NCBI RefSeq assembly: GCF_000025305.1
Contig: NC_013740.1
Location: 2,108,001-2,172,000, forward strand
Direction of reading: 5' to 3'
Length of the DNA stretch: 64,000 nt
DNA from: Acidaminococcus fermentans DSM 20731
GTDB lineage: Bacteria; Bacillota; Negativicutes; Acidaminococcales; Acidaminococcaceae
In this document: piece after piece, positions 40,343-52,187 of the stretch
Layout: every line of letters begins with the position of its first letter
Numbering within the stretch: the first letter of the stretch is position 1
Translations under genes and position numbers: made by a program
Notes under the pieces: model-generated
Told to the model about the DNA's origin: nothing
The model's input: only the letters and a program-made list of their open reading frames with translations
Database searches by the model: none

Positions 40343-40418
40343 GGGGCACTAGCTCAGCTGGGAGAGCGCAAGGTTCGCAATCTTGAGGTCAGGGGTTCGA
40401 TCCCCCTGTGCTCCACCA
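40343..40418 (+). tRNA. tRNA-Ala (anticodon CGC)
   Basis: A 76-nt tRNA with encoded CCA. Acceptor GGGGCAC/GTGCTCC pairs fully and has the G3-U70 alanine identity pair. D stem GCTC/GAGC, anticodon stem CAAGG/TCTTG with loop TTCGCAA (anticodon CGC, reads GCG), variable AGGTC, T stem AGGGG/CCCCT with loop TTCGATC. Its last 18 nt form attL of the adjacent integrative element, and the gene remains intact. Confidence 0.96.
40401..40418 (+). other. attL (tRNA 3' end)
   Basis: TCCCCCTGTGCTCCACCA, repeated with one difference (TCCCCCTATGCTCCACCA) at 47635-47652. Since the tRNA stem needs the G, the crossover probably lies to its right, within TGCTCCACCA. Confidence 0.9.
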
Positions 40419-40442
40419 ATTATTAAGCCGAAACGGTGAAAT

Positions 40443-40517
40443 GTTTCAAAGTGTTTCAAACCGTGTTTCCATGCGGGGTTAGCGGTTTTCAAGACAGTTT
40501 GAAGCGTTTCAAACCGT
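40443..40517. repeat. GTTTCAAA direct repeats near attL
   Basis: GTTTCAAA at 40443-40450, 40453-40460 and 40506-40513; the last two are extended to GTTTCAAACCGT. Spacing of 10 nt between the first two puts them on one DNA face. Candidate arm-type sites or excisionase sites. Confidence 0.5.
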
Positions 40518-40536
40518 TTCTTTTTTTTACCCTTTT

Positions 40537-40683
40537 TTGCCAACTTTTTGCCAACTTTCCTAAAATCAGCATGAGAAAAATTTGCCAACTTTTTTCAAAG
40601 CCGGGGGGCCGCTTCCTGTCTAGGGTTGCGGCCTTTTTTTGCTGATTTTTTTCAAAGGGTATTGGGCCAAAGTCGCCAACTTT
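40537..40683. repeat. TTGCCAACTTT arm-site-like repeats, left
   Basis: TTGCCAACTTT at 40537-40547 and 40548-40558 (tandem), 40582-40592, and a one-mismatch copy at 40673-40683. The same word recurs near attR (47574-47596), the arrangement expected for integrase arm-binding sites flanking the core. Confidence 0.7.
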
Positions 40684-40684
40684 T

Positions 40685-41878
40685 TCATACGGTAATTTTT
40701 TCCAGACATTCGTCAAGCTGTTCCTTCATCTCTTGTGTGACATGGGTATAAACCGACAAGGTAACTTTTGGATCTGAATGGCCTACCCTTTCCATAATTG
40801 CCTTTACAGGTACCCCCATGGCCGCAAGCATGGAAATATGCGTGTGTCTGAAAATATGGGTGCTGATATGCTTCCCCGGGATCTGCACAGCCCGTAACAG
40901 GCGGTTTATATATTGCCGATTCAATGGAAACCCCGTATCCGTGGTAAATATATAGCCCCTGTCCTTGTACTTGCTGCAAAGGCTGTTCCCTTGCTTCCCC
41001 CATCGTTCCATGCGCTTGTTGTCGGTATTGAACCATTCCAGGATCTGAACAGCCCGCATACTTAAATCAATGGTACGATAGGACGTTCTTGTTTTGGGCG
41101 TTCCCCTTTGAATGGATTCCCCGTTTTTGGCTGTTACCAGGATGGTTCCCGTGACTGAAAGTTGCCGCTTATCCAGGTTCACGTCTTGACGGCGCAAAGC
41201 AAGCATTTCCCCGCACCGTAGCCCCGTGAGTGAAATAAATTCCATGGCCAGGCCAACACGGAAATTCCGTTCTTTGAGTTGATCCAGGCAATTTTTTAAT
41301 TCTTCCTTGTCCAGGAACTTGTTGTTCTTTTTGGCCAGTTCTTCCGGGGTATCCGGGCGGCGTTTCAAGTCAATTTCTTCAAAGTCGGTTACATTGTCGG
41401 TGTAACCGGCTTTTTTCGCATACCGCATAATCGCTTTTACAGTAATCAGCAGGGACTTGCAATAGTTAAAAGAAAGTTTGTCCACGTAGTAATAACGGAA
41501 CAGCATTTTTTCCGCTATTGGGGCGGTGAAGTCTTTGAATAGGATCCCTTCCGGCAATCCGGCCAGGATCTTCCGTATATACAAGTCATGGTTTATCCTG
41601 GTTGCTTCTTTGATCCGCATATCCGTAATTTCTTGCCATTCCTGCAAGACGGTAGACAGGGCCAGGGATTCAAGGCGGCTAGCCTTTCTGGCTTCCCCCT
41701 TGTCTGCTTTTTCTTCAAACTTTTCCCGCAGCATTTGCGCTGCCACCTTTTGGGCATGGGCGTTCTTGCTGTTCAAAGTAACAGAAACAGTTAATTTAAG
41801 CCCCGTTTTCTTATCTTCAAACCGTTCTTGATAAACATACCGTGTTCCCTTGCTGTTCGTTCTTTTGGTTATCCACAT
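40685..41878 (-). CDS. int: Tyrosine-type site-specific integrase
   Basis: A 397-residue Tn916/phage-type integrase that would recombine attP with the tRNA-Ala 3' end. N-terminal arm-binding region (RYVYQERFEDKKTGLKL), SAM-like core-binding domain about 75-180, catalytic domain with R221 (TGLRCGE), H341 and R344 (HIFRHTH), H367 (RVGHSD) and nucleophile Y377 (VYTHVT). All catalytic residues are present and the frame is intact, so it should be active. Lies next to the intact tRNA with attL and arm repeats downstream of its stop. Lower GC than its chromosomal neighbours. Confidence 0.94.
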   Translation of the reverse strand: MWITKRTNSKGTRYVYQERFEDKKTGLKLTVSVTLNSKNAHAQKVAAQMLREKFEEKADKGEARKASRLESLALSTVLQEWQEITDMRIKEATRINHDLYIRKILAGLPEGILFKDFTAPIAEKMLFRYYYVDKLSFNYCKSLLITVKAIMRYAKKAGYTDNVTDFEEIDLKRRPDTPEELAKKNNKFLDKEELKNCLDQLKERNFRVGLAMEFISLTGLRCGEMLALRRQDVNLDKRQLSVTGTILVTAKNGESIQRGTPKTRTSYRTIDLSMRAVQILEWFNTDNKRMERWGKQGNSLCSKYKDRGYIFTTDTGFPLNRQYINRLLRAVQIPGKHISTHIFRHTHISMLAAMGVPVKAIMERVGHSDPKVTLSVYTHVTQEMKEQLDECLEKITV

Positions 41879-41911
41879 ACAAAATACCTTCTTTCCCGTT
41901 ACTCATTGTGC

Positions 41912-41937
41912 CCCTGTCAGTGCTTATTGAGTCGGGA
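41912..41937. repeat. 26-nt direct repeat, copy 1 (upstream of int)
   Basis: Identical over 26 nt to 42903-42928; core CAGTGCTTATTGAGTCGGG. Lies between the int start (about 34 nt away, antisense to int) and the repressor stop. May be a shared regulatory or protein-binding site. Confidence 0.75.
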
Positions 41938-41946
41938 GAAAAAAGG

Positions 41947-42540
41947 TTATTTATCTGGGTTTTCCTGCAAGGCGTCAAGATTTTCTTGAATCGCGTTTTT
42001 CGCTTTTGACGGCAAAGCACCTGCCTTTAAACTCTCAATATCAACATTGATATTCCCCGCGCTTTTAGCGTATTTTTGCAATATGCTAGCGTATACATAC
42101 ATTTTCAACAAGTCTTTTTTCGCGGCCTGGTAATTGGGATTATTCGCGCCTGCAATGACCGCCGCGATAAATTCATCCTTGCCCAAAACAGGAACGTCTA
42201 ATGAGCCCTTGTCTTGTTTGGCTTCTTCCTTGTTCTGATATACAAAAACAGCGGTACTCCCCCGAAATTGCCAGGGATCCGTGAAAAGTCCCGCCTCCTT
42301 GCATACGTCCAAACACCTGGTTAATTCGTCCGGCTGTTCCGGATCATATCCCAGGAGATTGTCCACAGATACATGAAGAAGGCGGGCAATTTTCACCAAT
42401 AAAGAATATTTAGGTTCCCGCCCTTTGTTTTCGTACCCCATATAAGTTGTGTAGTTTATGCCTAGTTTTTCGGAAAAATCTTTTGCGGATTTATACCCGG
42501 CCTTTTCTCTGTAATGAATTAAGTTTTCTTGAAATCCCAC
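41947..42540 (-). CDS. CI-like repressor (HTH_3)
   Basis: A 198-residue regulator with an N-terminal XRE HTH domain (FQENLIHYREKAGYKSAKDF, LGINYTTYMGYENKGREPKYSLLVKIARLL, read in parts; about residues 2-60) and DNLLGYD typical of phage repressors. The C-terminal half is not a LexA-type peptidase (no Ser-Lys dyad region seen) but a helical domain rich in Ala/Lys. Start: GTG 42540 with AAAGGGGG 7 nt upstream; upstream ATGs at 42558 and 42621 have no ribosome binding site. It probably holds the element silent by acting on the divergent promoters in 42560-42650. Confidence 0.8.
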   Translation of the reverse strand: MGFQENLIHYREKAGYKSAKDFSEKLGINYTTYMGYENKGREPKYSLLVKIARLLHVSVDNLLGYDPEQPDELTRCLDVCKEAGLFTDPWQFRGSTAVFVYQNKEEAKQDKGSLDVPVLGKDEFIAAVIAGANNPNYQAAKKDLLKMYVYASILQKYAKSAGNINVDIESLKAGALPSKAKNAIQENLDALQENPDK

Positions 42541-42565
42541 GGAAAAGCCCCCTTTCATATCTAGT

Positions 42566-42594
42566 ATTATATCCATAAAGTGAATATAAGTAAA
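42566..42594 (-). promoter_or_regulatory. Promoter of the repressor gene
   Basis: Minus strand: -35 TTTACT (42589-42594), 17 nt, -10 TATAAT (42566-42571). Faces the cro promoter 20 nt away. Confidence 0.65.
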
Positions 42595-42614
42595 GTATAT
42601 TTCCAATATAGCTA

Positions 42615-42643
42615 TTGACATATATTTGAGAATCGGCTATACT
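42615..42643 (+). promoter_or_regulatory. Promoter of the Cro-like gene (early lytic-type promoter)
   Basis: -35 TTGACA (42615-42620), 17 nt, -10 TATACT (42638-42643). Near-consensus and divergent from the repressor promoter; the region between is AT-rich and likely holds operators. Confidence 0.82.
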
Positions 42644-42689
42644 TCTCTTGAAAATTGATTTTATGGACATTTTAAGAGGAGGGAACCAT

Positions 42690-42896
42690 ATGAAAACTTT
42701 CAATGTTGATATGCGGAAGGTTAAGGAAACAGCCTACAAAAAATACATGAGCCTGCAAGACCTGGCAATTAAATCCCATGTTTCCGCGGCTTCTCTGTTT
42801 GCATATCAAGCAAAGCGGCGTAAGGCTAGTGAAAGAGCCGTGTACAAGATTGCCGCGGCCCTGGATGTATCCCCGGCCGATATTATCGAAAAATAA
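42690..42896 (+). CDS. Cro-like small HTH regulator
   Basis: A 68-residue XRE-type HTH protein: SLQDLAIKSHVSAASLFAYQAKRRKASERAVYKIAAALDVSPADII (in parts: LQDLAIKSHVS, AVYKIAAALDVSP). Start ATG 42690 has AGGAGGG 7 nt upstream; the frame opens earlier but without a site. Divergent from the repressor, the normal place for Cro. Confidence 0.82.
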   Translation: MKTFNVDMRKVKETAYKKYMSLQDLAIKSHVSAASLFAYQAKRRKASERAVYKIAAALDVSPADIIEK

Positions 42897-42902
42897 CAAG
42901 TA

Positions 42903-42928
42903 CCCTGTCAGTGCTTATTGAGTCGGGA
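42903..42928. repeat. 26-nt direct repeat, copy 2 (upstream of the excisionase-like gene)
   Basis: Identical to 41912-41937. Here it lies directly upstream of the ribosome binding site (GGAAGG) of the HTH gene at 42943. The two copies are in the same orientation and flank the repressor-cro region. Confidence 0.75.
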
Positions 42929-42942
42929 AAGGAAGGATGAAC

Positions 42943-43182
42943 ATGTTACAAGTCAAAACGGTTTGCGTTGATGATTACGGCGAGCGTTGGTTGAGCCGCA
43001 CAGAGATTGCGGAAATACTTTCTATTTCAAGGCCTACTGCCTGGCGGCTATTGAACAAAATGCGGGCAATTCCGAAATACCGGGGCGCGTTCCTGGATTT
43101 AAGCAGCACTCTGAAACGTGTTCGGGAACGGGATCTAAAGGAATTTCTGAAAGAACAGAACCTGGCGTATTTGAAGAAATAA
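42943..43182 (+). CDS. Excisionase-like winged-helix/MerR-type HTH protein
   Basis: A 79-residue DNA-binding protein with WLSRTEIAEILSISRPTAWRLLNKM (read as WLSRTEIAEILSIS, PTAWRLLN), the HTH_17/AlpA-Xis class. It probably directs excision with Int or activates the replication genes, as AlpA does in phage satellites; role inferred from size and position. Start ATG 42943 preferred (GGAAGG 6 nt upstream) over ATG 42937, which lies on top of the site. Confidence 0.72.
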   Translation: MLQVKTVCVDDYGERWLSRTEIAEILSISRPTAWRLLNKMRAIPKYRGAFLDLSSTLKRVRERDLKEFLKEQNLAYLKK

Positions 43183-43305
43183 ACCCCGTTTTTCGGCAAC
43201 GAAATAAAGCCCCTATGGGATTCCATCCGGGGCGGGGATTTATTGGCATTGCGGCGGCTTTAACCCGTTGCAGATTCACACAACAAGTGGAAAGAAGGTG
43301 AAACC

Positions 43306-43554
43306 ATGAGCAAGAAACAAACGGTTGTAATTTTGGACGTTAAAACCCCTTCAATGGCCCGGGCTATTCGGGCAAAATGTTTAAACTGTTCTGGTTATCA
43401 GCGGGCGGAAGTCCGGGATTGTGTTTTGACAGATTGCCCCCTGTTCCCCTATCGGTTCGGTAAGGGGCCAAAGGCGGCCATAAACAGCCTGGGAAAATCC
43501 TACACGGTAAAAGTTGTAAAAGGAGAGTGTGCAACATGGAAAGAATCAGAGTAA
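43306..43554 (+). CDS. Small Cys-containing element protein
   Basis: An 82-residue protein of unknown function found in many Firmicute prophages and satellites, recognised by AKCLNCSGYQRAEVRDC and TDCPLFPYRFGKGP: four Cys in a CxxC...C....C pattern likely binding zinc. GGTGAAACC precedes ATG 43306. Ends overlapping the next gene by 19 nt. Confidence 0.75.
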   Translation: MSKKQTVVILDVKTPSMARAIRAKCLNCSGYQRAEVRDCVLTDCPLFPYRFGKGPKAAINSLGKSYTVKVVKGECATWKESE

Positions 43555-43751
43555 CGCGGGAACAGATGAAAGCCGTAACGGCTTACATTGAACAGGTTCT
43601 GAAATCGGCGGAACTATGGAATACCATGGGGGACATTGCGGGCAATGAGAATTATCCGGAAGTTGTCGAATTCATGAAGAAAGTAGCAGTACGGGAAGAA
43701 TTAAAGGCAGACAGCATGAAAAAGGCCCTGTTTGAAATCGTTGAAAAATAA
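43536..43751 (+). CDS. Small hypothetical protein of the element
   Basis: A 71-residue mostly helical protein (MERIRVTREQMKAVTAYIEQ ... KKALFEIVEK), not recognised. Start 43536 has AAAGGAGAG 9 nt upstream inside the previous gene. Overlapping start suggests translational coupling with 43306-43554. Confidence 0.65.
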   Translation: MERIRVTREQMKAVTAYIEQVLKSAELWNTMGDIAGNENYPEVVEFMKKVAVREELKADSMKKALFEIVEK

Positions 43752-43756
43752 AAACA

Positions 43757-43788
43757 GCCGTCATGAATGAGCGACCATTCACAACGGC
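43757..43788 (+). other. Hairpin after the small-gene cluster
   Basis: GCCGT and TGAATG pair with CATTCA and ACGGC around loop AGCGAC; no T-run. May be an RNA stability or processing element, or an operator. Confidence 0.5.
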
Positions 43789-43791
43789 AAG

Positions 43792-43828
43792 GGACAAAAT
43801 TCCGGCCAGGGGTTTTGTCCTTGTTCTT
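43792..43828 (+). terminator. Terminator before the primase gene
   Basis: GGACAAAA, ~11-nt loop, TTTTGTCC, then TTGTTCTTT. Ends the small-gene transcript about 60 nt before the primase-helicase. Confidence 0.65.
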
Positions 43829-43887
43829 TATTATAGCGATTTTAACAGTATGTAACAATAAAAAACACTAACGATGAAAGGAGAAAC

Positions 43888-46566
43888 ATGAACAAGAAAT
43901 TATATTCTCTGAATGAAATTCTATCAAAGTGTGGGGAATGGCACAAGAGGGGCGAGAACGAATGGGAAACCGCTTGTCCTGTATGCGGAAGTGACCACCA
44001 TTTATATATAAAAGAAGTAGAAGACGGAAAAGTTCTGGCCTTTTGCCACAAGTGCCACGCGTCCCTCCCTGCTGTACTGAAAGCCCTGGGCATGAACAAC
44101 GGCGGAAACCCCGTTGCCGCAAAGCCCCCGGCCCCTGCTGAACCTAAAAAGCCCAAAGACCATGGAAAACAAGTAGAACGGATTGTATATACCTATCGGG
44201 ATCCAGACGGCAGGGAAGCCTATTGCAAGATTCGGGAAAAGTTCGCGGATGGTCATAAGAAATTCAGCTTTCTCTACACGGACGCGGACGGGAACCTGGT
44301 TTATAAAAAGCCGAAACATTGCAACAATCTGTATAACCTGGATAAACTGGATAAACTGGCCAAAGCGGCCCCGGATACGCCTTTATATATCGTTGAGGGC
44401 GAAAAATGCGCGGATTCAATGACGGCGGCGGGCTTTCTGGCAACGAGTACCAACACGGGCGCGGAAAGCCCGAACCTGTCAGAAACGGACAAGGAAATCC
44501 TGGGTAAATTTTCCAATAAAATCGTGATACCCGACTATGACGACCCGGGCCGCGCTTATGCGGAATTTTGGCAGCAGAAACAAGGGGCCAGGATCCTTCC
44601 TTTACCGGAAATCTGGCCAGAGTGCCCGGTAAAGGGTGACGTTGCCGACTATTTCCAGGCAGACGGGGATCCGGAAAAAATTAGAAACTATCAGTTCCCC
44701 GCACAGGAAGAAGCAGCGGCCCCGGATTTAGAAACATGCCAGGAAGAACAGATAGTAGAGTATTTTAAAACCCTGGACAAAGCACAACTGACAAGCCCGA
44801 AACTGTTTGCAAGGATCTGTGCTATTGAAGACACGGCGAAACGGCAACGAGTGGAAAGCCTGGCCACGTTCCGTGCCAGTGACCTGTCTATAAAGCGGGA
44901 ATTTGACAAGAATTACAGAGCCTTCATGCATGAACAGGCAAAGAAAGGGAACGGAAACCAGGAAGAACACTACACACAATTTCCGGGCCAGCCGTTACAA
45001 TTGCGGTGTGGTGACTGGATCGCGGATGAAGAAGGGGTGCGGAAATTCGTTCTTTTAGGCAACGGAAACACGAAAAGAGAAGACGCGTCCTCTATTCCCC
45101 TGTTACCTTCGGCAATCTATGAGAACCAGGAAACAGGAACGGAAAAAATTGAACTGTCATTCTTTAAATATGGCAAATGGAAGCAAATACTTGTACCCCG
45201 TTCGATTGTAGCCAACAAAACAAAAATTATTGCCCTGGCTGACGATGGTATAGAGGTTACCAGTGAAAATTCTAGTTTCCTGGTTAAATATATTTCTGAC
45301 GTAGTAAACAGCAACCAGGATACGTTGCCGCGCGTTGCCAGTATTGGGCACATGGGCTGGGATCCCAAAGAGGAATACGGGGAATTTGTCCCCTACTCTG
45401 ATTCTATTCAACCAGATGTTGGCGATCAATTCGGCGCATTACTGAAAGCCCTGGAACCAAAAGGAACGTTGCCAGAATGGTATAAGATTGTGTGTCCCCT
45501 GCTAAAAAGCCCCTACATGCGCATGACCATAGCCGCAAGCCTGGCCAGTGTACTTATAGGCCCCATGCACGCGTTGCCCTTTATCCTTCATTTATGGGGC
45601 GGCACGGGCGCGGGAAAAACAGTTGCGCTCAAAGTTGCGGCCAGTATATGGGGAAATCCAGACGAGGGAAAAATGGTGGACACCATGAACAACACCATAA
45701 ATTACATTATGGACAAGGCCGGGGTTTTATACAGTATCCCGTTTTTCGGGGATGAATTGCAGACCATCAAAGGAAACGGCGGAAACTATGATAGTCTGAT
45801 TTACCGGGTAACCGGCCAGACTAACAGGGGAAGATTGCGGGCCAACGGATCTATGGTGCGGCGGCTGTCCTGGCAAAACAGTTTCCTTTTCACAGGGGAA
45901 GAACCCATTACGCAGAGCAACAGCGGCGGCGGGGCTATCAACCGGGTTATTGAACTGGAATGTACGGAGAAGATTATTCAAGACGGCAACGGCACGGTTG
46001 CGGCAATTGCTGACTGTCACGGCGTATTGGGGCGGGCCTTCGTTGCACAAGCAAGGCAAAGCCAGGACACCAATAGAAAGGTATTCAAACAGTTTGAAAA
46101 GGAACTACAGGACATGGGCGGAACAGGAAAACAGGTGCAAGCCCTGGCACTAATGCTGACCGCCTACGATCTTCTTCAGAGCATGGCCCCGGCTGGCTGT
46201 CCCGTGTTGACCGTAGGGGACGTAAAAGGGTGTATAAAAACAGAACAAGAAGTGGATGTACCGCAGCGGGCCTATGAGTATGTTTGCGGCCAGATTGGAA
46301 TCAACCAAAACAAGTTTGTGATGAATGGTATCAACCCGAAAGGCGAAACATGGGGCGAAGTGTTTGGTGATAACACCGTGGATATTTTTAGGGAAGCCCT
46401 GGAAGGGATCCTAAAGGAAGCAGGCTATTCATTGCGGGCCGTCAAGCGGGAATGGTTAAAACGGGGCTACATGAAACGTTACAGGAAAGACGGGATTTTT
46501 GGACGCGGCTCTATTGCCGGTATTACAAGTAACCATATAGGAACATTGGTATTAGACCGTGAATAA
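43888..46566 (+). CDS. Primase-helicase, DUF927/TOPRIM type
   Basis: An 892-residue replication protein. N-terminal CHC2-like zinc ribbon (C30, C33, C53, C56: CPVCGSDHH, CHKCH); TOPRIM domain with YIVEGEKCADS (167-177) and IPDYDDPG (214-221), expected to make primers; C-terminal DUF927 helicase domain with Walker A GGTGAGKT (571-578) and Walker B-like FFGDEL (619-624). The frame is intact. It would replicate the element after excision from the iteron region immediately downstream, the pri-rep plus ori layout of phage satellites. Expressed in the same direction as cro and the excisionase-like gene; own start context AAAGGAGAAAC before ATG 43888. Confidence 0.88.
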   Translation: MNKKLYSLNEILSKCGEWHKRGENEWETACPVCGSDHHLYIKEVEDGKVLAFCHKCHASLPAVLKALGMNNGGNPVAAKPPAPAEPKKPKDHGKQVERIVYTYRDPDGREAYCKIREKFADGHKKFSFLYTDADGNLVYKKPKHCNNLYNLDKLDKLAKAAPDTPLYIVEGEKCADSMTAAGFLATSTNTGAESPNLSETDKEILGKFSNKIVIPDYDDPGRAYAEFWQQKQGARILPLPEIWPECPVKGDVADYFQADGDPEKIRNYQFPAQEEAAAPDLETCQEEQIVEYFKTLDKAQLTSPKLFARICAIEDTAKRQRVESLATFRASDLSIKREFDKNYRAFMHEQAKKGNGNQEEHYTQFPGQPLQLRCGDWIADEEGVRKFVLLGNGNTKREDASSIPLLPSAIYENQETGTEKIELSFFKYGKWKQILVPRSIVANKTKIIALADDGIEVTSENSSFLVKYISDVVNSNQDTLPRVASIGHMGWDPKEEYGEFVPYSDSIQPDVGDQFGALLKALEPKGTLPEWYKIVCPLLKSPYMRMTIAASLASVLIGPMHALPFILHLWGGTGAGKTVALKVAASIWGNPDEGKMVDTMNNTINYIMDKAGVLYSIPFFGDELQTIKGNGGNYDSLIYRVTGQTNRGRLRANGSMVRRLSWQNSFLFTGEEPITQSNSGGGAINRVIELECTEKIIQDGNGTVAAIADCHGVLGRAFVAQARQSQDTNRKVFKQFEKELQDMGGTGKQVQALALMLTAYDLLQSMAPAGCPVLTVGDVKGCIKTEQEVDVPQRAYEYVCGQIGINQNKFVMNGINPKGETWGEVFGDNTVDIFREALEGILKEAGYSLRAVKREWLKRGYMKRYRKDGIFGRGSIAGITSNHIGTLVLDRE

Positions 46567-46575
46567 AACCCTTTT

Positions 46576-46862
46576 CGTTAAAATCGTTAAACTTTTGGCC
46601 AGTTTCGTTAAACCCGAAAACCCGCATGAATCCTTGCTGCATGAGTAAAATTTAACGAATTTAACATTTTTAACAATAAATAATATATATATATGATCCA
46701 ATTTATTATGCGGGTATATTCCAATCCCCCGCCGCAATAAATTAAATATATATAGTGTTATTGTGCAGAAAAACTGTTAAATTCGTTAAAAAACCCGTAG
46801 AGCAAGGCGGGGAGCGGGTTTTCGGTTTAACGAAAGCCCCAAAATACCGTTAAATTTTAACG
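46576..46862. other. Putative replication origin with CGTTAAA iterons
   Basis: CGTTAAA or its complement TTTAACG occurs eight times: 46576, 46585, 46606, 46651, 46784, 46826, 46848 and 46856, mostly within TTCGTTAAA. The last two make a 15-nt palindrome CGTTAAATTTTAACG. A very AT-rich stretch (46676-46760, ATATATATAT runs) lies between the two clusters, as expected for an unwinding element. It follows the replication gene directly. Confidence 0.8.
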
Positions 46863-46891
46863 AAAAAACGGTAAACAGCCAGGGAGGGCGA

Positions 46892-47047
46892 ATGAATCAG
46901 CGTAATTTTTACGTTGTTAGGCAACGGGATCCCCCTGCAATGGGGGGTATAGTCCCAAAAATCGGGCGGCAATTTTGCAATTCGGCGGTAGGTTTGTTTC
47001 TTTTTTCACCCGCCCTTAAAAGTCCCTATAAAAAGTGTAATTTCTGA
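46892..47047 (+). CDS. Small hypothetical protein downstream of the origin
   Basis: A 51-residue ORF (MNQRNFYVVRQRDPPAMGGI, then VPKIGRQFCNSAVGLFLF and a basic end). AGGGAGGGCG sits 5 nt before ATG 46892, and its stop lies just before the ribosome binding site of the next gene, so both look like one operon. The DPP...VPKIG pattern recalls small phage proteins, but I cannot name it. Below usual length cut-offs. Confidence 0.5.
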   Translation: MNQRNFYVVRQRDPPAMGGIVPKIGRQFCNSAVGLFLFSPALKSPYKKCNF

Positions 47048-47061
47048 AAGGAGCCAAAAAG

Positions 47062-47250
47062 ATGGATGATATTGAAATGGAAAACGGTGATTATATTGAT
47101 TATGACGATTTTTGCGACAATGCGCAGGAAGAAGCCCTGGAAGATTCGTTAGTGGAAATGCCTAGCGATTCCACCCCGCAGGAAATCTATGATGATTATG
47201 AGGAAAGAACGGACGGCGAATACGCCGAACGGGAATCGTTCGACTGGTAA
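47062..47250 (+). CDS. Small acidic protein
   Basis: A 62-residue very acidic protein (DDIEMENGDYIDYDDFCDN start, IYDDYEERTDGEYAERESFDW end), net charge strongly negative and DNA-mimic-like. AAAGGAG 9 nt before ATG 47062. Function unknown; acidic mini-proteins in phage elements often inhibit DNA-binding host proteins, which is only a possibility here. Confidence 0.65.
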   Translation: MDDIEMENGDYIDYDDFCDNAQEEALEDSLVEMPSDSTPQEIYDDYEERTDGEYAERESFDW

Positions 47251-47368
47251 CACGTGTTTAAGCCCCTTTAAAAAGTACAGAATTGAAAACAGGTATAAGT
47301 ATATAGGGCGGGCGGGTTTCACCCCAAACACCCATATTAAACCCGGTTCAATTCAGCACGCGGGGCGG
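47251..47368. other. Gene-free stretch inside the element
   Basis: No supported ORF; short overlapping open frames here lack ribosome binding sites. Confidence 0.4.
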
Positions 47369-47397
47369 TTGCAATAGAATTAAAAACCGTGTAAAAT
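47369..47397 (+). promoter_or_regulatory. Promoter near the right end of the element
   Basis: -35 TTGCAA (47369-47374), 17 nt, -10 TAAAAT (47392-47397). Would start a transcript at about 47404, on top of the small ORF 47405-47521. Confidence 0.55.
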
Positions 47398-47404
47398 ACA
47401 GAGC

Positions 47405-47521
47405 ATGAGGGCAAGGGGTGTGACCATTGTGGCCTACTGGTGGTTGACAACATGGGCGCCCCTTGTCTTTTTCTTTGCAACGATCTGTCCGGATCCCTTG
47501 CCACCTGCACATAAAAAATAG
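47405..47521 (+). CDS. Candidate 38-residue membrane peptide
   Basis: MRARGVTIVAYWWLTTWAPL, then VFFFATICPDP and a Lys-Lys end: one hydrophobic helix with a positive N-terminus. It would be translated as a leaderless or near-leaderless message from the promoter at 47369-47397, and a hairpin (47518-47541) follows. The size and shape fit a type I toxin-like or holin-like peptide, but without a ribosome binding site this remains tentative. Confidence 0.3.
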   Translation: MRARGVTIVAYWWLTTWAPLVFFFATICPDPLPPAHKK

Positions 47522-47573
47522 ACCTGGTAAAAATCCAGGCCTATTGCAGGGGCACAATGAAATTTTATGTTGG

Positions 47574-47596
47574 TTGCCAACTTTTTACCAACTTTT
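47574..47596. repeat. TTGCCAACTTT arm-site-like repeats, right
   Basis: TTGCCAACTTT at 47574-47584 and the variant TACCAACTTTT at 47586-47596, about 40 nt inside attR. Counterpart of the repeats at 40537-40683. Confidence 0.65.
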
Positions 47597-47634
47597 CTAT
47601 ATAAAGGAGCGCGGAACAAGGAAATATGCGCCCT

Positions 47635-47652
47635 TCCCCCTATGCTCCACCA
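47635..47652 (+). other. attR
   Basis: TCCCCCTATGCTCCACCA, 17 of 18 nt identical to the tRNA-Ala 3' end at 40401-40418. Marks the right boundary of the integrated element. Confidence 0.88.
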
Positions 47653-47662
47653 GACAAAAAGC

Positions 47663-47701
47663 AAGCATCCATGCGGGTTTTGACCGTGTGGATGCTTTTT
47701 T
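47663..47701 (+). terminator. Terminator just beyond attR (original tRNA-Ala terminator)
   Basis: AAGCATCCA and TGCGG pair with CCGTG and TGGATGCTT, followed by six Ts. It starts 10 nt after attR, where a tRNA terminator would be in the empty site; integration has moved it 7.2 kb from the gene it served. Confidence 0.8.
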
Positions 47702-47867
47702 GTTTGCAAAAAATCTTATAAGGGTCATCTAAAAATCAATCAATTTGGCAGCAGAAAAAGGGGGAAAATGGGCGGGCGGCTCTGGCAACATTTTGCCGGA
47801 GGCAAAGGTTTTGAACCGCCCCTACGGCATCCTATTTCATTTCCCAAGTCTTTTTATACACATCAAA
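47702..47867. other. Gene-free region with GTAGGGGC-type repeat
   Basis: No ORF. Contains a nested structure: GGGCGG (about 47772) pairs with CCGCCC (about 47816) around a TTGCC/GGCAA stem, ending in CGCCCCTACGGCATC. The end matches GGCCCCTACGGCATC at about 62860. Confidence 0.45.
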
Positions 47868-47893
47868 AGGACCTGGCCATCAGGCCAGGTCCT
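47868..47893 (-). terminator. Terminator of the rrf2 gene
   Basis: AGGACCTGGCC, loop of 4, GGCCAGGTCCT: a perfect 11-bp stem followed by TTTT in the minus direction. Confidence 0.82.
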
Positions 47894-47896
47894 GTC

Positions 47897-47924
47897 CTGA
47901 GTCTTCTGACTCCAGACTGAGGGA
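47897..47924 (-). repeat. Four-heptamer array G (degenerate)
   Basis: Units CTGAGTC, TTCTGAC, TCCAGAC, TGAGGGA. In the direction of the Rrf2 gene the order is stop, GCTGC/GCAGC hairpin (47921-47946), array, terminator (47868-47893), the same as after rplQ. Confidence 0.6.
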
Positions 47925-47946
47925 CTGCTGCCCAGGCAGCAACCCC
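47921..47946 (-). other. GCTGC/GCAGC hairpin of the heptamer module after rrf2
   Basis: TGCTGC, loop CCAG, GCAGCA, extended by GGG/CCC. Lies 6 nt after the Rrf2 stop. Confidence 0.55.
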
Positions 47947-47951
47947 TCTTT

Positions 47952-48374
47952 TTACATCCCCTTCTTTTCCTGCTTTTTCACCAGGTCTTCCAAGGTGGTG
48001 TTGTCCACGATGTTGTCGATGGCGTCCTGGATTTCTTTCCACAGGTCCAGGGTCACGCAGTGGGCGGCCCGGTCGCAGATGGCATGGCCGGGTTCCAGGC
48101 AGGCCACCGGGGCCAGGGACCCTTCCACCGCCCGGAGGATCTCTCCGGCTGTATAGTCTTTGGGATCACGGACCAGTTTGTACCCGCCCTGGGCTCCTCT
48201 GGCGCTTTTCACCAGTTTGGCGCGGGAGAGCTGGGTAATGATCTGTTCCAGGTATTTTTCTGAGATTTCCTGTCTCTGAGAGACACTTTTAATGGGTACA
48301 TAGGATTCGGTGCCGTTGATGGCCAGATCGATCATCAGGCGCAGGGCGTACCGTCCCTTGGTAGAGATTTTCAT
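47952..48374 (-). CDS. Rrf2-family transcriptional regulator (IscR/RsrR-like)
   Basis: A 140-residue winged-helix regulator: MKISTKGRYALRLMIDLAI, QEISEKYLEQIITQLSRAKLV (recognition helix region) and the wing GAQGGYKLVRDP. Three cysteines in C-x7-C-x5-C spacing (ACLEPGHAICDRAAHC, about 92-106) can hold an Fe-S cluster, so it probably senses redox or Fe-S status. Start ATG 48374 has GGAGG 5 nt upstream. It is divergent from the hydrogenase operon and the intergenic region holds two inverted repeats, suggesting it regulates both. Confidence 0.88.
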   Translation of the reverse strand: MKISTKGRYALRLMIDLAINGTESYVPIKSVSQRQEISEKYLEQIITQLSRAKLVKSARGAQGGYKLVRDPKDYTAGEILRAVEGSLAPVACLEPGHAICDRAAHCVTLDLWKEIQDAIDNIVDNTTLEDLVKKQEKKGM

Positions 48375-48402
48375 GGTTCCTCCTCGCAGCAAGAATAATT
48401 TC

Positions 48403-48464
48403 CTATAATTGTACTATAGAATTTTCCAAAAGGAAAGGTAAATTCCTAGTAATTTTTAGGAATT
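48403..48464. promoter_or_regulatory. Candidate Rrf2 operators in the divergent intergenic region
   Basis: Two dyads: CTATA/TATAG with a 7-nt centre (48403-48419), and AATTCCTA/TAGGAATT with an 8-nt centre (48441-48464, perfect 8-bp arms). They lie around the predicted start of the Rrf2 gene, upstream of the hydrogenase promoter. Confidence 0.55.
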
Positions 48465-48503
48465 TCATCCTTCTTGATTTATCTGATTTTTTCGCCGAAT
48501 CGA

Positions 48504-48533
48504 TTGACACTCTTTGCTTCCGAACGGTAAAAT
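48504..48533 (+). promoter_or_regulatory. Promoter of the hydrogenase operon
   Basis: -35 TTGACA (48504-48509), 18 nt, -10 TAAAAT (48528-48533), about 65 nt before the first gene. Confidence 0.72.
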
Positions 48534-48598
48534 AATATCGTATCTGTTCATTCTGTTTCCGGAATCCATACCGGAAATTCGCAGAGGGGGAAATCATC

Positions 48599-50434
48599 GT
48601 GAGTCGCTTACAGATTGAAACGCCGGGCAGGGCCCAGACGGTCCTGAACAGCCTGTATCAGGATATGCACCGAAGGATCAGTGCCAGTTCGCCGGGGCTT
48701 TGTCCGGTGGACATGGCCCTGAATTTCCTGCGCTTCTGCCATGCCCAGAGCTGCGGCAAATGCGTGCCCTGCCGGGTGGGGCTGGGCCAGCTGGAAGTGC
48801 TGATCGAACAGGTGCTGGATCGGACGGCCAGCCTGGACACCATCACCCTGATCGAAAAGACGGCCCGGAGCATTGCGGATTCTTCGGACTGCGCCATTGG
48901 GTTTGAAGCGGCTTCCATGGTGCTGAAGGGAGTCCGGGGCTTCCGGGAGGACTATGAGGAACACGTGCTCACCGGCCGGTGCATCTGCGGTCTCAGCCAC
49001 CCGGTGCCCTGTGTGTCCACCTGCCCGGCCCATGTGGATATCCCGGGCTACGTGGCCCTGATCCGGGACGGCCGCTACGAGGATGCCCTGGAACTGATCC
49101 GGAAGGACAATCCCTTCCCGGCGGCCTGCGCCTATGTATGTGAACATCCCTGCGAGCACCACTGCCGCCGGGGCATGGTGGATGCTCCGGTGAACATCTG
49201 CGGCCTGAAGCGGTTTGCGGTGGACCATGCCAGACCGGCCAAGGCTCCGGCTCCCGCCCCGGCCACGGGAAAGACGGTGGCGGTGATCGGAGGGGGCCCC
49301 GGAGGCCTGACGGCGGCCTATTACCTTTCCCTGATGGGCCACAGTGTCACGGTGTACGAACAGCGGCCCCGGCTGGGCGGCATGCTCCGGTACGGGATCC
49401 CCGATTACCGGCTGCCCCTGGAGGTGCTGGACCGGGATCTTTCCTACATCCTGTCCGCAGGCATCCAGGTCCGCACCGGCGTCTCCATCGGCACGGATAT
49501 CCCGGTGGCTCAGCTCCAGCAGCAGTACGATGCGGTGTACATCGCCATCGGGGCCCACAGCGACAAAAAACTGCACCTGCCCGGGGAAGAGGCCCAGGGA
49601 GTGTTCAGCGCCGTCCGGCTGCTCCGGGACATCGGGGAAGGCCGGATTCCGGATTTTACCGGGAAACGGGTATGCATCATCGGCGGCGGCAACGTGTCCA
49701 TGGACGCCACCCGCACGGCCAAACGGCTGGGCGCTGCTTCCGTCCAGTGCATTTACCGGCGCCGGCTGGAAGACATGACGGCCCTGCCGGAAGAAATCCA
49801 GGATGCCATGGCGGAGGGCTGCGAGATTGTCACCCTGGAAGCCCCCAGCCGGATCGAAACCAACGAACAGGGCCAGGTGACGGCCCTGTGGACCCAGCCC
49901 CAGCACATCGGTCCCTACAATGGAAAGGACCGGCCCAATCCGGTGAAGGCGGCTCTTCCTGAACGGCGGTTCCCCTGCGATGTGCTGATCGTGGCCATCG
50001 GTCAGTCCATTGTCACCCAGCCCTTTGAGGCGGTGGGGGTCACCATCCGTCGGGGCACCATCCAGGCGGACCTGTCCAGCAGCGTCCCGGGCCTGGGGAA
50101 CCTGTTTGCCGGCGGGGATGCCGTCTCCGGTCCGGCCACGGTGATCCGGGCGGTGGCGGCCGGCAAGGTGGCAGCGGACAACATCGATTCCTTCCTGGGA
50201 TTCCACCACCGGATTTCCTGCGGGGTGGAGATTCCTCCGGCCTATTTCACCCACACCCCGCCCTGCGGCCGGGTGAACCTGAAGCAGCACTGCACCCCGG
50301 ACTGTGTGGGAGATTTCCACCTGGTCTCGGAAGGGATGACGCCGGAAGAGGCCCGGCAGGAAGCCAGCCGCTGTCTGCGCTGTGACCACTTTGGCTACGG
50401 CAGCTTCAAAGGAGGGAGGAATCGGGAATGGTAA
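48599..50434 (+). CDS. NuoF-tail/GltD-like NAD(P)H oxidoreductase partner of [FeFe]-hydrogenase
   Basis: A 611-residue cytoplasmic flavoprotein that should feed NAD(P)H electrons to HydA encoded just downstream. Residues 50-110 match the C-terminal cluster domain of NuoF/HydB (SCGKCVPCRVG with C52, C55, C58 and C98). Residues 125-215 are the GltD/NfnB N-terminal [4Fe-4S] domain (CPAHVDIPGYV, NPFPAACAYVCEHPCEHHCRRG). Then a Rossmann pair: FAD site VAVIGGGPGGLTAAYYLS (about 229-246) and NAD(P) site VCIIGGGNVSMDATRTAKRLGA (about 358-379), and GNLFAGGDAV near 502. A C-terminal CLRCDH adds a cluster ligand pair. Starts at GTG 48599 after AGAGGGGG. Overlaps hydA by 7 nt. Fusion of NuoF-type and GltD-type parts points to a bifurcating or NAD(P)H-linked hydrogenase. 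Confidence 0.85.
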   Translation: MSRLQIETPGRAQTVLNSLYQDMHRRISASSPGLCPVDMALNFLRFCHAQSCGKCVPCRVGLGQLEVLIEQVLDRTASLDTITLIEKTARSIADSSDCAIGFEAASMVLKGVRGFREDYEEHVLTGRCICGLSHPVPCVSTCPAHVDIPGYVALIRDGRYEDALELIRKDNPFPAACAYVCEHPCEHHCRRGMVDAPVNICGLKRFAVDHARPAKAPAPAPATGKTVAVIGGGPGGLTAAYYLSLMGHSVTVYEQRPRLGGMLRYGIPDYRLPLEVLDRDLSYILSAGIQVRTGVSIGTDIPVAQLQQQYDAVYIAIGAHSDKKLHLPGEEAQGVFSAVRLLRDIGEGRIPDFTGKRVCIIGGGNVSMDATRTAKRLGAASVQCIYRRRLEDMTALPEEIQDAMAEGCEIVTLEAPSRIETNEQGQVTALWTQPQHIGPYNGKDRPNPVKAALPERRFPCDVLIVAIGQSIVTQPFEAVGVTIRRGTIQADLSSSVPGLGNLFAGGDAVSGPATVIRAVAAGKVAADNIDSFLGFHHRISCGVEIPPAYFTHTPPCGRVNLKQHCTPDCVGDFHLVSEGMTPEEARQEASRCLRCDHFGYGSFKGGRNREW

Positions 50435-52158
50435 CCTGTACCATCGACGGAAAAATCATCCAGGTGCCGGAAGGGACCACCATCATGGAAGCGGCCCGGC
50501 AGGCCCACATCCGGATCCCCCACCTGTGCTACCTGAAAGGGCTGAACGAGATTGCCGCCTGCCGGGTGTGCTGTGTGGAGGTGGAAGGGGAACCGGCCAT
50601 GGTCACCGCCTGCAACAGCCCGGTGAAAGAAGGCATGGTGGTCCGCACCAATTCGCCCCGGGTCCGGGAAACCCGGAAAATCAATGTGGAACTGATCCTG
50701 TCCCAGCATGACTGCCGGTGCGCCACCTGCGTCCGCAGCGGCAACTGCCGGCTCCAGTCCCTGGCCAACAGCCTGGGGATCCACGACAATCCCTATGAGG
50801 AACAGCTGCCCAAAGGGCTCCGCCGGGCCTGGACCACCACCTATCCCCTGTTCCACGACTACAACAAATGCATCAAGTGCATGCGCTGCATCCAGGTGTG
50901 CGACAAAATCCAGGCCATGCACATCTGGGATGTGGCGGGCACCGGGGGACGGACCACCGTGGATGTGTCCGGGAACCGGGTGATCAAGGATTCGGACTGC
51001 ACCCTGTGCGGCCAGTGCATCATCCACTGCCCGGTGGCCGGGCTCCGGGAGCGGGACGACACGGACCGGCTCTATGAAGCCCTGGCAGACCCGGACAAGG
51101 TGACCCTGGTCCAGGTGGCTCCGGCGGTGCGGACGGCCTGGTGCGAAGCCTTCGGCCTGCCCCGGGAGGAAGGGACCATCGGCCGGATGGCGGCAGCCCT
51201 GCGTCAGCTGGGGTTCGACCATGTGTACGACACCACCTTTGCCGCGGATCTGACCATTATGGAAGAAGCCAACGAATTCCTGGAACGGTTCCTGGCAGGG
51301 GATACCCGGGAATTCCCCATGTTCACCAGCTGCTGTCCCGGCTGGGTCCGGTTCCTGAAAGGACAGTATCCGGAGCTGACGGACCGGCTGTCCACCTCCA
51401 AATCCCCCCAGCAGATGTTCGGGGCCATAGCCAAGACCTGGCTGGCGGACAAGCTGCAGGTGATCCCGGAAAAACTGTACTGCGTATCCATCATGCCCTG
51501 CCTGGCCAAGAAGGCGGAATGTGCCCTGCCCACCATGCGCACGGACCACGGGCCCGATGTGGACCTGGCCCTGACCACCCGGGAATTCATCCGTGTGCTC
51601 CGTGCGGACCATCTGGATCCGTCCCTGCTGCCGGAAGAGCCCCTGGATGATCCCATGGGGACCTTTACCGGTGCCGGGACCATTTTCGGAACCACCGGCG
51701 GGGTGCTGGAGGCGGCGCTCCGGACGGCCTATGCCAAACTCACCGGGGAAAATCCCGACCCGGAACTGTTTGCTCCTTTGCGGAACGGCATCGGGCTCCG
51801 GGATGCGGTGTACACCATCGCCGGCAAAGAGATCCGCTGTGCGGTGGTCAGCGGTCTGGGGAACACCCGGCAGCTGATCCAGGCCCTGAAGCGGAAGGAA
51901 GTCCATTACGATTTCGTGGAAGTGATGGCCTGCCCGGGCGGATGCGCCGGCGGGGGCGGCCAGCCCATTCCCCAGGAGGACGAGGAACTGGAAGGCGTGC
52001 GGGGTGAACAGCTCCGGACCCTGGACAAGCGCAGCCGCTTCCGGTTCTCCCACGAAAATCCCCAGATCCAGCGGCTGTACCGGGAATTCCTGGGCAAGCC
52101 CCTGAGCCCCAAAGCAGAAGCCCTGCTCCATACGGACCATTTTGGGTGGAAGATGTAA
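50428..52158 (+). CDS. hydA: [FeFe]-hydrogenase catalytic subunit, group A
   Basis: A 576-residue M3-type enzyme that evolves or oxidises H2. In order: [2Fe-2S] domain (C34, C45, C48, C62), His-ligated [4Fe-4S] (H94, C98, C101, C107), two [4Fe-4S] (C148/151/154/158 and C191/194/197/201), then the H-cluster with L1 TSCCPGW (300-306), L2 MPCLAKKAE (356-364) and L3 EVMACPGGCAGGGGQP (498-513). All ligands are intact. Translationally coupled to the upstream oxidoreductase (7-nt overlap). No HydC (NuoE-like) subunit and no maturases HydEFG are in this window, so they must lie elsewhere. Ends in a hairpin-array-terminator module. Confidence 0.95.
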   Translation: MVTCTIDGKIIQVPEGTTIMEAARQAHIRIPHLCYLKGLNEIAACRVCCVEVEGEPAMVTACNSPVKEGMVVRTNSPRVRETRKINVELILSQHDCRCATCVRSGNCRLQSLANSLGIHDNPYEEQLPKGLRRAWTTTYPLFHDYNKCIKCMRCIQVCDKIQAMHIWDVAGTGGRTTVDVSGNRVIKDSDCTLCGQCIIHCPVAGLRERDDTDRLYEALADPDKVTLVQVAPAVRTAWCEAFGLPREEGTIGRMAAALRQLGFDHVYDTTFAADLTIMEEANEFLERFLAGDTREFPMFTSCCPGWVRFLKGQYPELTDRLSTSKSPQQMFGAIAKTWLADKLQVIPEKLYCVSIMPCLAKKAECALPTMRTDHGPDVDLALTTREFIRVLRADHLDPSLLPEEPLDDPMGTFTGAGTIFGTTGGVLEAALRTAYAKLTGENPDPELFAPLRNGIGLRDAVYTIAGKEIRCAVVSGLGNTRQLIQALKRKEVHYDFVEVMACPGGCAGGGGQPIPQEDEELEGVRGEQLRTLDKRSRFRFSHENPQIQRLYREFLGKPLSPKAEALLHTDHFGWKM

Positions 52159-52161
52159 AAA

Positions 52162-52187
52162 GGAGCTGCTGCATAGGCAGCAGCTCC
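52162..52187 (+). other. GCTGC/GCAGC hairpin of the heptamer module after hydA
   Basis: GGAGCTGCTGC, loop ATAG, GCAGCAGCTCC: perfect 11-bp stem 3 nt after the hydA stop. No T-run follows. Confidence 0.7.

Follow-up and report, generated by a model that had tools for sequence, protein, structure and literature searches.

The 7,234-bp (7.23-kb) element integrated at tRNA-Ala(CGC) in the chromosome of Acidaminococcus fermentans DSM 20731 is probably a minimal cos-type phage satellite, resembling the phage-inducible chromosomal islands (PICIs), that is packaged by a siphophage with an HNH-type terminase region. It lies in a stretch of 64,000 nucleotides (hereafter the window; G000:C1:2108001-2172000) of a genome that consists of a single contig of 2,329,769 bases. 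The initial annotation of this DNA had left the choice between a phage satellite and an integrative plasmid and had seen no route by which the element could spread. We found a candidate route in a cos-like site at 46937-47008, and because this packaging-like sequence is shared with prophages carrying terS, an HNH gene and terL, the satellite half of that reading is favoured and the plasmid half disfavoured.

A putative packaging site shared with siphophages

Close to the right end of the element, approximately 70 nt of non-coding DNA match, without a gap in the alignment, the space just upstream of the terS-HNH-terL genes in full-length prophages from two sister species. When the non-coding right end was compared with 59 genomes of the family, it matched, besides this element and a sibling in the strain deposited as A. 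fermentans WCA-389-WT-5B (G004), a single place: 58 nt at 78% identity (E value 1.7e-5 in that genome) in A. massiliensis Marseille-P2828 (G003), inside a full prophage and immediately upstream of terS, the HNH gene and terL. The prophage of genome G008 matches at the homologous place (72 nt, 71%). The terminase region of these prophages was recognised with PHROGs (large terminase 3.8e-68, HNH protein 3.2e-20), and terS was assigned by position only. Cos phages typically encode an HNH protein next to the terminase. A pattern describing the site gave, with up to 3 mismatches, four matches in the 59 genomes, namely the two satellites and the two prophages, and no control matches; the pattern was built from these same sequences, so that their recovery was expected and what counts is that no others appeared. 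With a looser pattern, matches were obtained in two viral contigs (38,477 and 38,177 bases), in both cases just upstream of terS/HNH/terL; the longer contig does not differ from the A. massiliensis prophage across the genes compared and is therefore probably not independent. In the genome_contigs collection, the looser pattern was found only in A. massiliensis and A. fermentans WCA-389-WT-5B.

The G004 satellite and the A. massiliensis phage have 35 exact consecutive nucleotides in common at the site, which sits within a 114-nt run that is identical in both satellites, and the sharing is confined to the site because its flanks are unrelated. The conserved block consists of a G run and several spaced motifs. 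In phi105, with a TerL related at 25%, the annotated cos end is located 53 nt upstream of terS, and a phage in genome G039 (TerL 57% identical) carries GGGGTATGTTTTG near the equivalent spot, a length too short for significance. A blastn search of the cos region against isolated phages gave no match, and the Acidaminococcus site was not seen by eye at any end of the TerL-related phage records, among which only phi105 has an annotated cos, and GVE2, phiHugo and PT9.1 are without annotated ends. Based on position and conservation, we regard the shared site as a putative cos. It carries most of the satellite assignment, as the integrase core alone would be insufficient, given that its relatives occur in elements with varied contents.

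It is also conceivable, but unlikely, that in the same satellite these 70 nt are the late-operon control region of a helper phage, copied to switch on the 62-aa gene, with packaging depending on another signal. Such a role would fit the position of the site, which lies ahead of terS in phage genomes and ahead of orf62 in both satellites, and a different element, at tRNA-Arg (L044), has an ArpU-like activator beside an HNH gene. However, no promoter-like hexamer pair overlapping 46937-47008 was found in the window, the block with its G run and spaced motifs is positioned like the annotated phi105 cos, and no regulator family in PHROG corresponds to the 137-aa open reading frame (ORF) that the phage has upstream of its copy.

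Boundaries, gene content and sibling element

The features of the element are listed below by window coordinates, strand and description, with their basis in brackets.

40343-40418, +, tRNA-Ala (CGC), the integration target (ARAGORN; Rfam RF00005)
40401-40418, +, attL core repeat TCCCCCTGTGCTCCACCA (repeat search; empty site in A. massiliensis)
40536-40685, +, left-arm repeats GCCAACTTTTT, candidate arm-type integrase sites, a putative function (repeats D1, D4 and D9; present also in the ssrA relic)
40685-41878, -, tyrosine integrase, 397 aa (PF00589 1.5e-21; phrog_1 3e-59)
41912-41937, +, 26-nt direct repeat, copy 1 (repeat search)
41947-42546, -, repressor of the CI/Stl type, 199 aa with an uncertain start, the frame being open as far as 42621 (HTH_3; Peptidase_S24 not matched)
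42690-42896, +, Cro-type helix-turn-helix (HTH) protein, 68 aa (profile and PHROG searches)
42903-42928, +, 26-nt direct repeat, copy 2 (repeat search)
42937-43182, +, HTH_17 excisionase/AlpA-like protein (Xis), 81 aa (PF12728 29.2 bits, cut-off 27; phrog_66 excisionase 1e-4)
43306-43554, +, Cys-rich small protein, 82 aa (96% identical in G004; relative in another element, L099)
43536-43751, +, small protein, 71 aa (90% identical in G004)
43888-46566, +, fused primase-helicase, 892 aa, with Zn/TOPRIM-type primase part, DUF927 helicase and Cch-type C-terminal HTH, HTH_56 (profile and PDB matches)
46574-46864, no strand, predicted replication origin with TCGTTAAA iterons on either side of an AT-rich centre (iteron count; inverted repeats)
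46937-47008, +, putative cos (packaging) site common to terS-HNH-terL prophages (sequence match, position)
47062-47250, +, very acidic protein, 62 aa (97% identical in G004; dN/dS about 0.04)
47573-47599, +, right-arm repeats TTGCCAACTTTTTACCAACTTTTCTA, candidate arm-type sites (repeat D9)
47635-47652, +, attR core repeat TCCCCCTATGCTCCACCA (repeat search; empty site in A. massiliensis)
47656-47704, +, terminator hairpin of the host tRNA-Ala, just beyond attR (inverted repeat; adjoins the tRNA directly at the empty site)

The 18-nt att repeats proposed in the initial annotation are real: TCCCCCTGTGCTCCACCA and TCCCCCTATGCTCCACCA form a direct repeat with 17 of 18 nt identical, the left copy being the 3' end of the tRNA gene, which stays intact despite the insertion. 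The initial annotation had suggested inspecting related genomes for an empty site, for a larger prophage at this tRNA and for the same element. In A. massiliensis, tRNA-Ala runs directly into the terminator hairpin, and in a search of the genus the joined flanks of the element matched this genome uninterrupted over 178 nt at 95% identity. Because this species has one continuous tRNA-Ala and terminator matching the joined flanks, the att repeats mark the true boundaries of the element. The right flank (47635-52174) is collinear with the same empty site. As attL retains the host base at the A/G mismatch in the 18-mer, the crossover presumably took place to the right of it. No larger prophage was seen at tRNA-Ala(CGC) in 9 Acidaminococcus genomes; two carry the satellite, and in the others the gene is empty or runs straight into other sequence, one of these stopping at a contig end. 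The source genome holds no second copy of the element beyond an approximately 215-bp gene-less relic of the left arm of a related element, located after the tmRNA gene ssrA (L007:7306-7520, which is G000:C1:1329306-1329520, and L162:2958-3150). This relic is found in both G000, the source genome, and G004, and therefore a related element formerly used ssrA.

Eight ORFs were judged to be genes, and profile and PHROG searches covered all of them. Their order is int (-), the CI-type gene (-), the Cro-type gene, the HTH_17 gene, two small ORFs, the primase-helicase gene and, beyond the iteron region, the 62-aa acidic ORF. The integrase, CI/Cro switch, excisionase-like protein and DUF927-type primase-helicase named in the initial annotation were all recovered by profile and PHROG matches, and the absence of packaging, capsid, terminase and conjugation genes that it had reported also held, since no terminase, capsid, lysis, relaxase or type IV secretion system (T4SS) gene was found among the eight. 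The ORF list and profile searches revealed no coupling protein in the element, and Rfam no structured RNA besides the tRNA. Apart from the cos-like site, the arm-type integrase-site repeats at both ends and the perfect 26-nt repeat around cI-cro are additions to the initial annotation.

Residues 401-870 of the primase-helicase match PDB 8tch, 'Pathogenicity island protein' (E value 1.7e-27), and residues 522-697 match PDB 5dgk, 'Active helicase', which we take to be the helicase Cch of the staphylococcal cassette chromosome, the protein also having an NCBIfam Cch1 match. Judged by these matches, the helicase part appears to be like Cch and the Rep protein of the Staphylococcus aureus pathogenicity islands (SaPIs). 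The N-terminal part matches phage primases in PHROG. Directly downstream of this gene, 8 copies of CGTTAAA occur in 334 bp around an AT-rich centre, compared with 0.07 expected from mononucleotide shuffling and a total of 11 throughout the 64 kb, so the iteron origin that had been proposed is beyond chance. The SaPI origin likewise adjoins rep.

The sibling element in G004 resides at the same tRNA-Ala, and its proteins are closely similar (Int 100%, Xis 95%, 82-aa 96%, 71-aa 90% and 62-aa 97% identical). Synonymous and nonsynonymous changes number 13 and 0 in the integrase gene and 9 and 2 in the 62-aa gene, respectively; both genes are under strong purifying selection. For the Xis, 82-aa and 71-aa genes, there were too few changes to judge selection. 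Identity between the two genomes is 98.4% in the left block, which contains int, versus 90.2% in the host flank, pointing to a probable recent exchange of the int module. In G004, a different cI-cro region takes the place of the one seen here (CI 45% identical). In both elements, the 26-nt repeat occurs twice and bounds the cI-cro cassette, the sibling copies having 0-1 mismatch and a different cassette between them. The replacement suggests an exchange of immunity cassettes, and the 26-nt repeats, which have no match in IMG/VR, may serve as recombination ends or as a binding site for a regulator. We counted the replacement in favour of a satellite, as it is expected of diversifying immunity. 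The block of tRNA-Ala and element in G004 is inverted relative to its chromosomal neighbours when compared with G000 and G003 (L033).

Proposed life cycle and other explanations

In the life cycle that we infer for the satellite, the integrase and the HTH_17 protein would mediate integration and excision of the element at the 3' end of tRNA-Ala(CGC), and the CI/Cro pair would hold it silent. Since the repressor is without a recognised self-cleavage domain (no Peptidase_S24), derepression by a helper-phage protein, as with Stl of SaPIs, is likelier than by the SOS response. After induction, the fused primase-helicase would fire the iteron origin to give concatemers, which TerS/HNH/TerL of a helper siphophage would cut at the cos-like site and pack into helper capsids. 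The likely helpers are siphophages of about 38 kb with an HNH-type terminase region, from A. massiliensis and its relatives. Five units of the element amount to 36.2 kb, which is, as a post hoc fit, approximately 94-95% of the 38.2-38.5-kb helper contigs, and because five units would nearly fill the helper head, no capsid-remodelling gene would be needed. Packaging as concatemers of helper length is known from the phage-inducible chromosomal minimalist islands (PICMIs) of Vibrio (PMC10803314), and the Escherichia coli PICI EcCICFT073 uses cos in full-size capsids (PMC6092414).

Several findings weigh against a cos-type satellite. The cos is assigned by position and conservation, and the source genome has no resident helper, with no TerL of matching type and no PF03354 match at all. 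The G004 primase-helicase, 86% identical, has a frame break near residues 118-147, and the sibling has fewer exact iterons. Close relatives were not found in IMG/VR viral contigs by primase or by integrase alignment, and no interference gene was recognisable in the element. Furthermore, PICIs are typically about 12-15 kb (PMC6092414), a soft criterion, and as 7,234 bp is below this range we use the name PICI-like. For helper dependence, a further PICI characteristic that comprises induction, replication and packaging by a helper phage and interference with it, the shared terminase-region site is an indirect indication only. Three other PICI characteristics described there are present: the organisation with integrase, replication module and master regulator, an att site of its own that is never occupied by a prophage (in the 9 Acidaminococcus genomes, a small sample with one contig end), and no structural or lytic phage genes across the eight ORFs.

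A degenerate or deletion-derived prophage, i.e. a siphophage relic that has retained int, switch, primase and cos, is very unlikely. The intact homologues closest to the primase, at about 50% identity, are found in the very prophages that bear the site, whose gene order is int-cI / early genes-pri-cos-terS, and the broken primase frame in G004 would suit a relic. The integrases of these prophages, however, are only 29-33% identical to that of the element and their integration site differs. Also, no residual phage gene is present, the same compact layout recurs in two genomes, strong purifying selection acts on the integrase and orf62, and compact elements with a related integrase exist in other Negativicutes. 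If the element arose by deletion long ago, this would still agree with the satellite interpretation. Least probable of all is an integrative plasmid or integrative mobilizable element replicating after excision and spreading by conjugative mobilization or natural transformation. Relaxases (L096 MobA/MobL, L099 Relaxase) or a rolling-circle Rep (L097) do occur in relatives built on the same Int-CI-Cro-Xis core, but the element itself has no coupling protein, no T4SS gene and no match to a relaxase, whereas integrative mobilizable elements are characterised by a relaxase or oriT-processing protein, and the terminase-region site is shared specifically with phages.

Related elements and known satellites

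Relatives of the integrase, at 57-39% identity, belong, in other Negativicutes, to compact elements that are mostly linked to tRNA genes and whose contents vary, among them a MobA/MobL relaxase (L096), a rolling-circle Rep (L097) or a VapE-like primase (L098). Three of them (L101:2156-9518, L103:2075-9783 and L106:2044-10172) combine a related Int with a D5-type primase, a scaffold protein and a major head protein (phrog_422), and no terminase was seen among their ORFs; these are candidate capsid-carrying satellites. In an Acidaminococcus genome, a 4-kb element at tRNA-Ser(CGA) with 22-nt repeats (L115:1660-5661) contains an integrase and switch genes and no recognisable replication gene. The 13-kb tRNA-Arg element (L044:5473-18692), with integrase, CI, DUF927-type primase, HNH gene and ArpU-like activator, is a larger PICI-like relative. 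In G004, the same Int/CI/Cro/Xis core lies beside a relaxase, a serine recombinase and a gene for a protein like elongation factor G, which resembles ribosome-protection tetracycline resistance (L099:2169-17611). Tentatively, compact elements throughout the Negativicutes might share an exchangeable chassis, made up of Int, CI, Cro and Xis with an immunity cassette swapped between short repeats, to which replication and transfer modules are plugged in: cos here, major capsid and scaffold without terminase in other families, and relaxases in yet others. If true, the same mobile core alternates between phage-borne and conjugation-borne spread.

We found no report of satellites in Negativicutes, Acidaminococcus or Veillonella in the openly licensed papers searched; a cos-type satellite in Negativicutes is apparently unreported, and the kind itself is known. 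The satellite interpretation turns a gene list of unclear mobility into a testable satellite-helper pair, with the likely helper named by its terminase, and would add the Negativicutes, which are gut bacteria, to the classes in which cos-type satellites occur. The element would be near the lower size limit of a working satellite and bears on the minimal functions needed for hijacking a tailed phage.

Like the StCI satellites of Streptococcus thermophilus (PMC13376191), which are PICI-like islands with a primase and candidate cos sites, the element combines a primase with a putative cos, whereas in StCI the cos evidence consists of two 13-nt matches with one mismatch each, the host class is another one, and transfer by competence has been shown. 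The Vibrio PICMIs (PMC10803314) are likewise very small, have an integrase, an HTH_17/AlpA-class protein and a primase, lack capsid remodelling and are packaged as concatemers, the latter being only predicted here. They are defined by an integrase, AlpA (PF05930/PF12728) and a DUF3987/DUF5906 primase beside fis, whereas our element has the PF12728 protein together with a DUF927/HTH_56 (Cch-like) primase-helicase and a CI/Cro switch, at tRNA-Ala. With EcCICFT073 (PMC6092414), it would share cos packaging in full-size helper capsids without capsid-size genes, although EcCICFT073 is larger, has other regulators and another host class, and its cos function is proven. Compared with the cos-type SaPIs SaPIbov4 and SaPIbov5 (PMC5052747), the element is half the size, its primase and Rep parts are in one protein, its helper is only a candidate, and operon-I-like genes (ORF8-12 with ccm, encoding the Ccm capsid protein) and virulence cargo are absent, with only the 62-aa acidic ORF beyond the origin. 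In common with these SaPIs, it has int, a divergent repressor/cro-type switch, an excisionase-like gene, a SaPI-Rep-like helicase with an iteron origin, and a helper-type cos, here putative, instead of a terminase small subunit.

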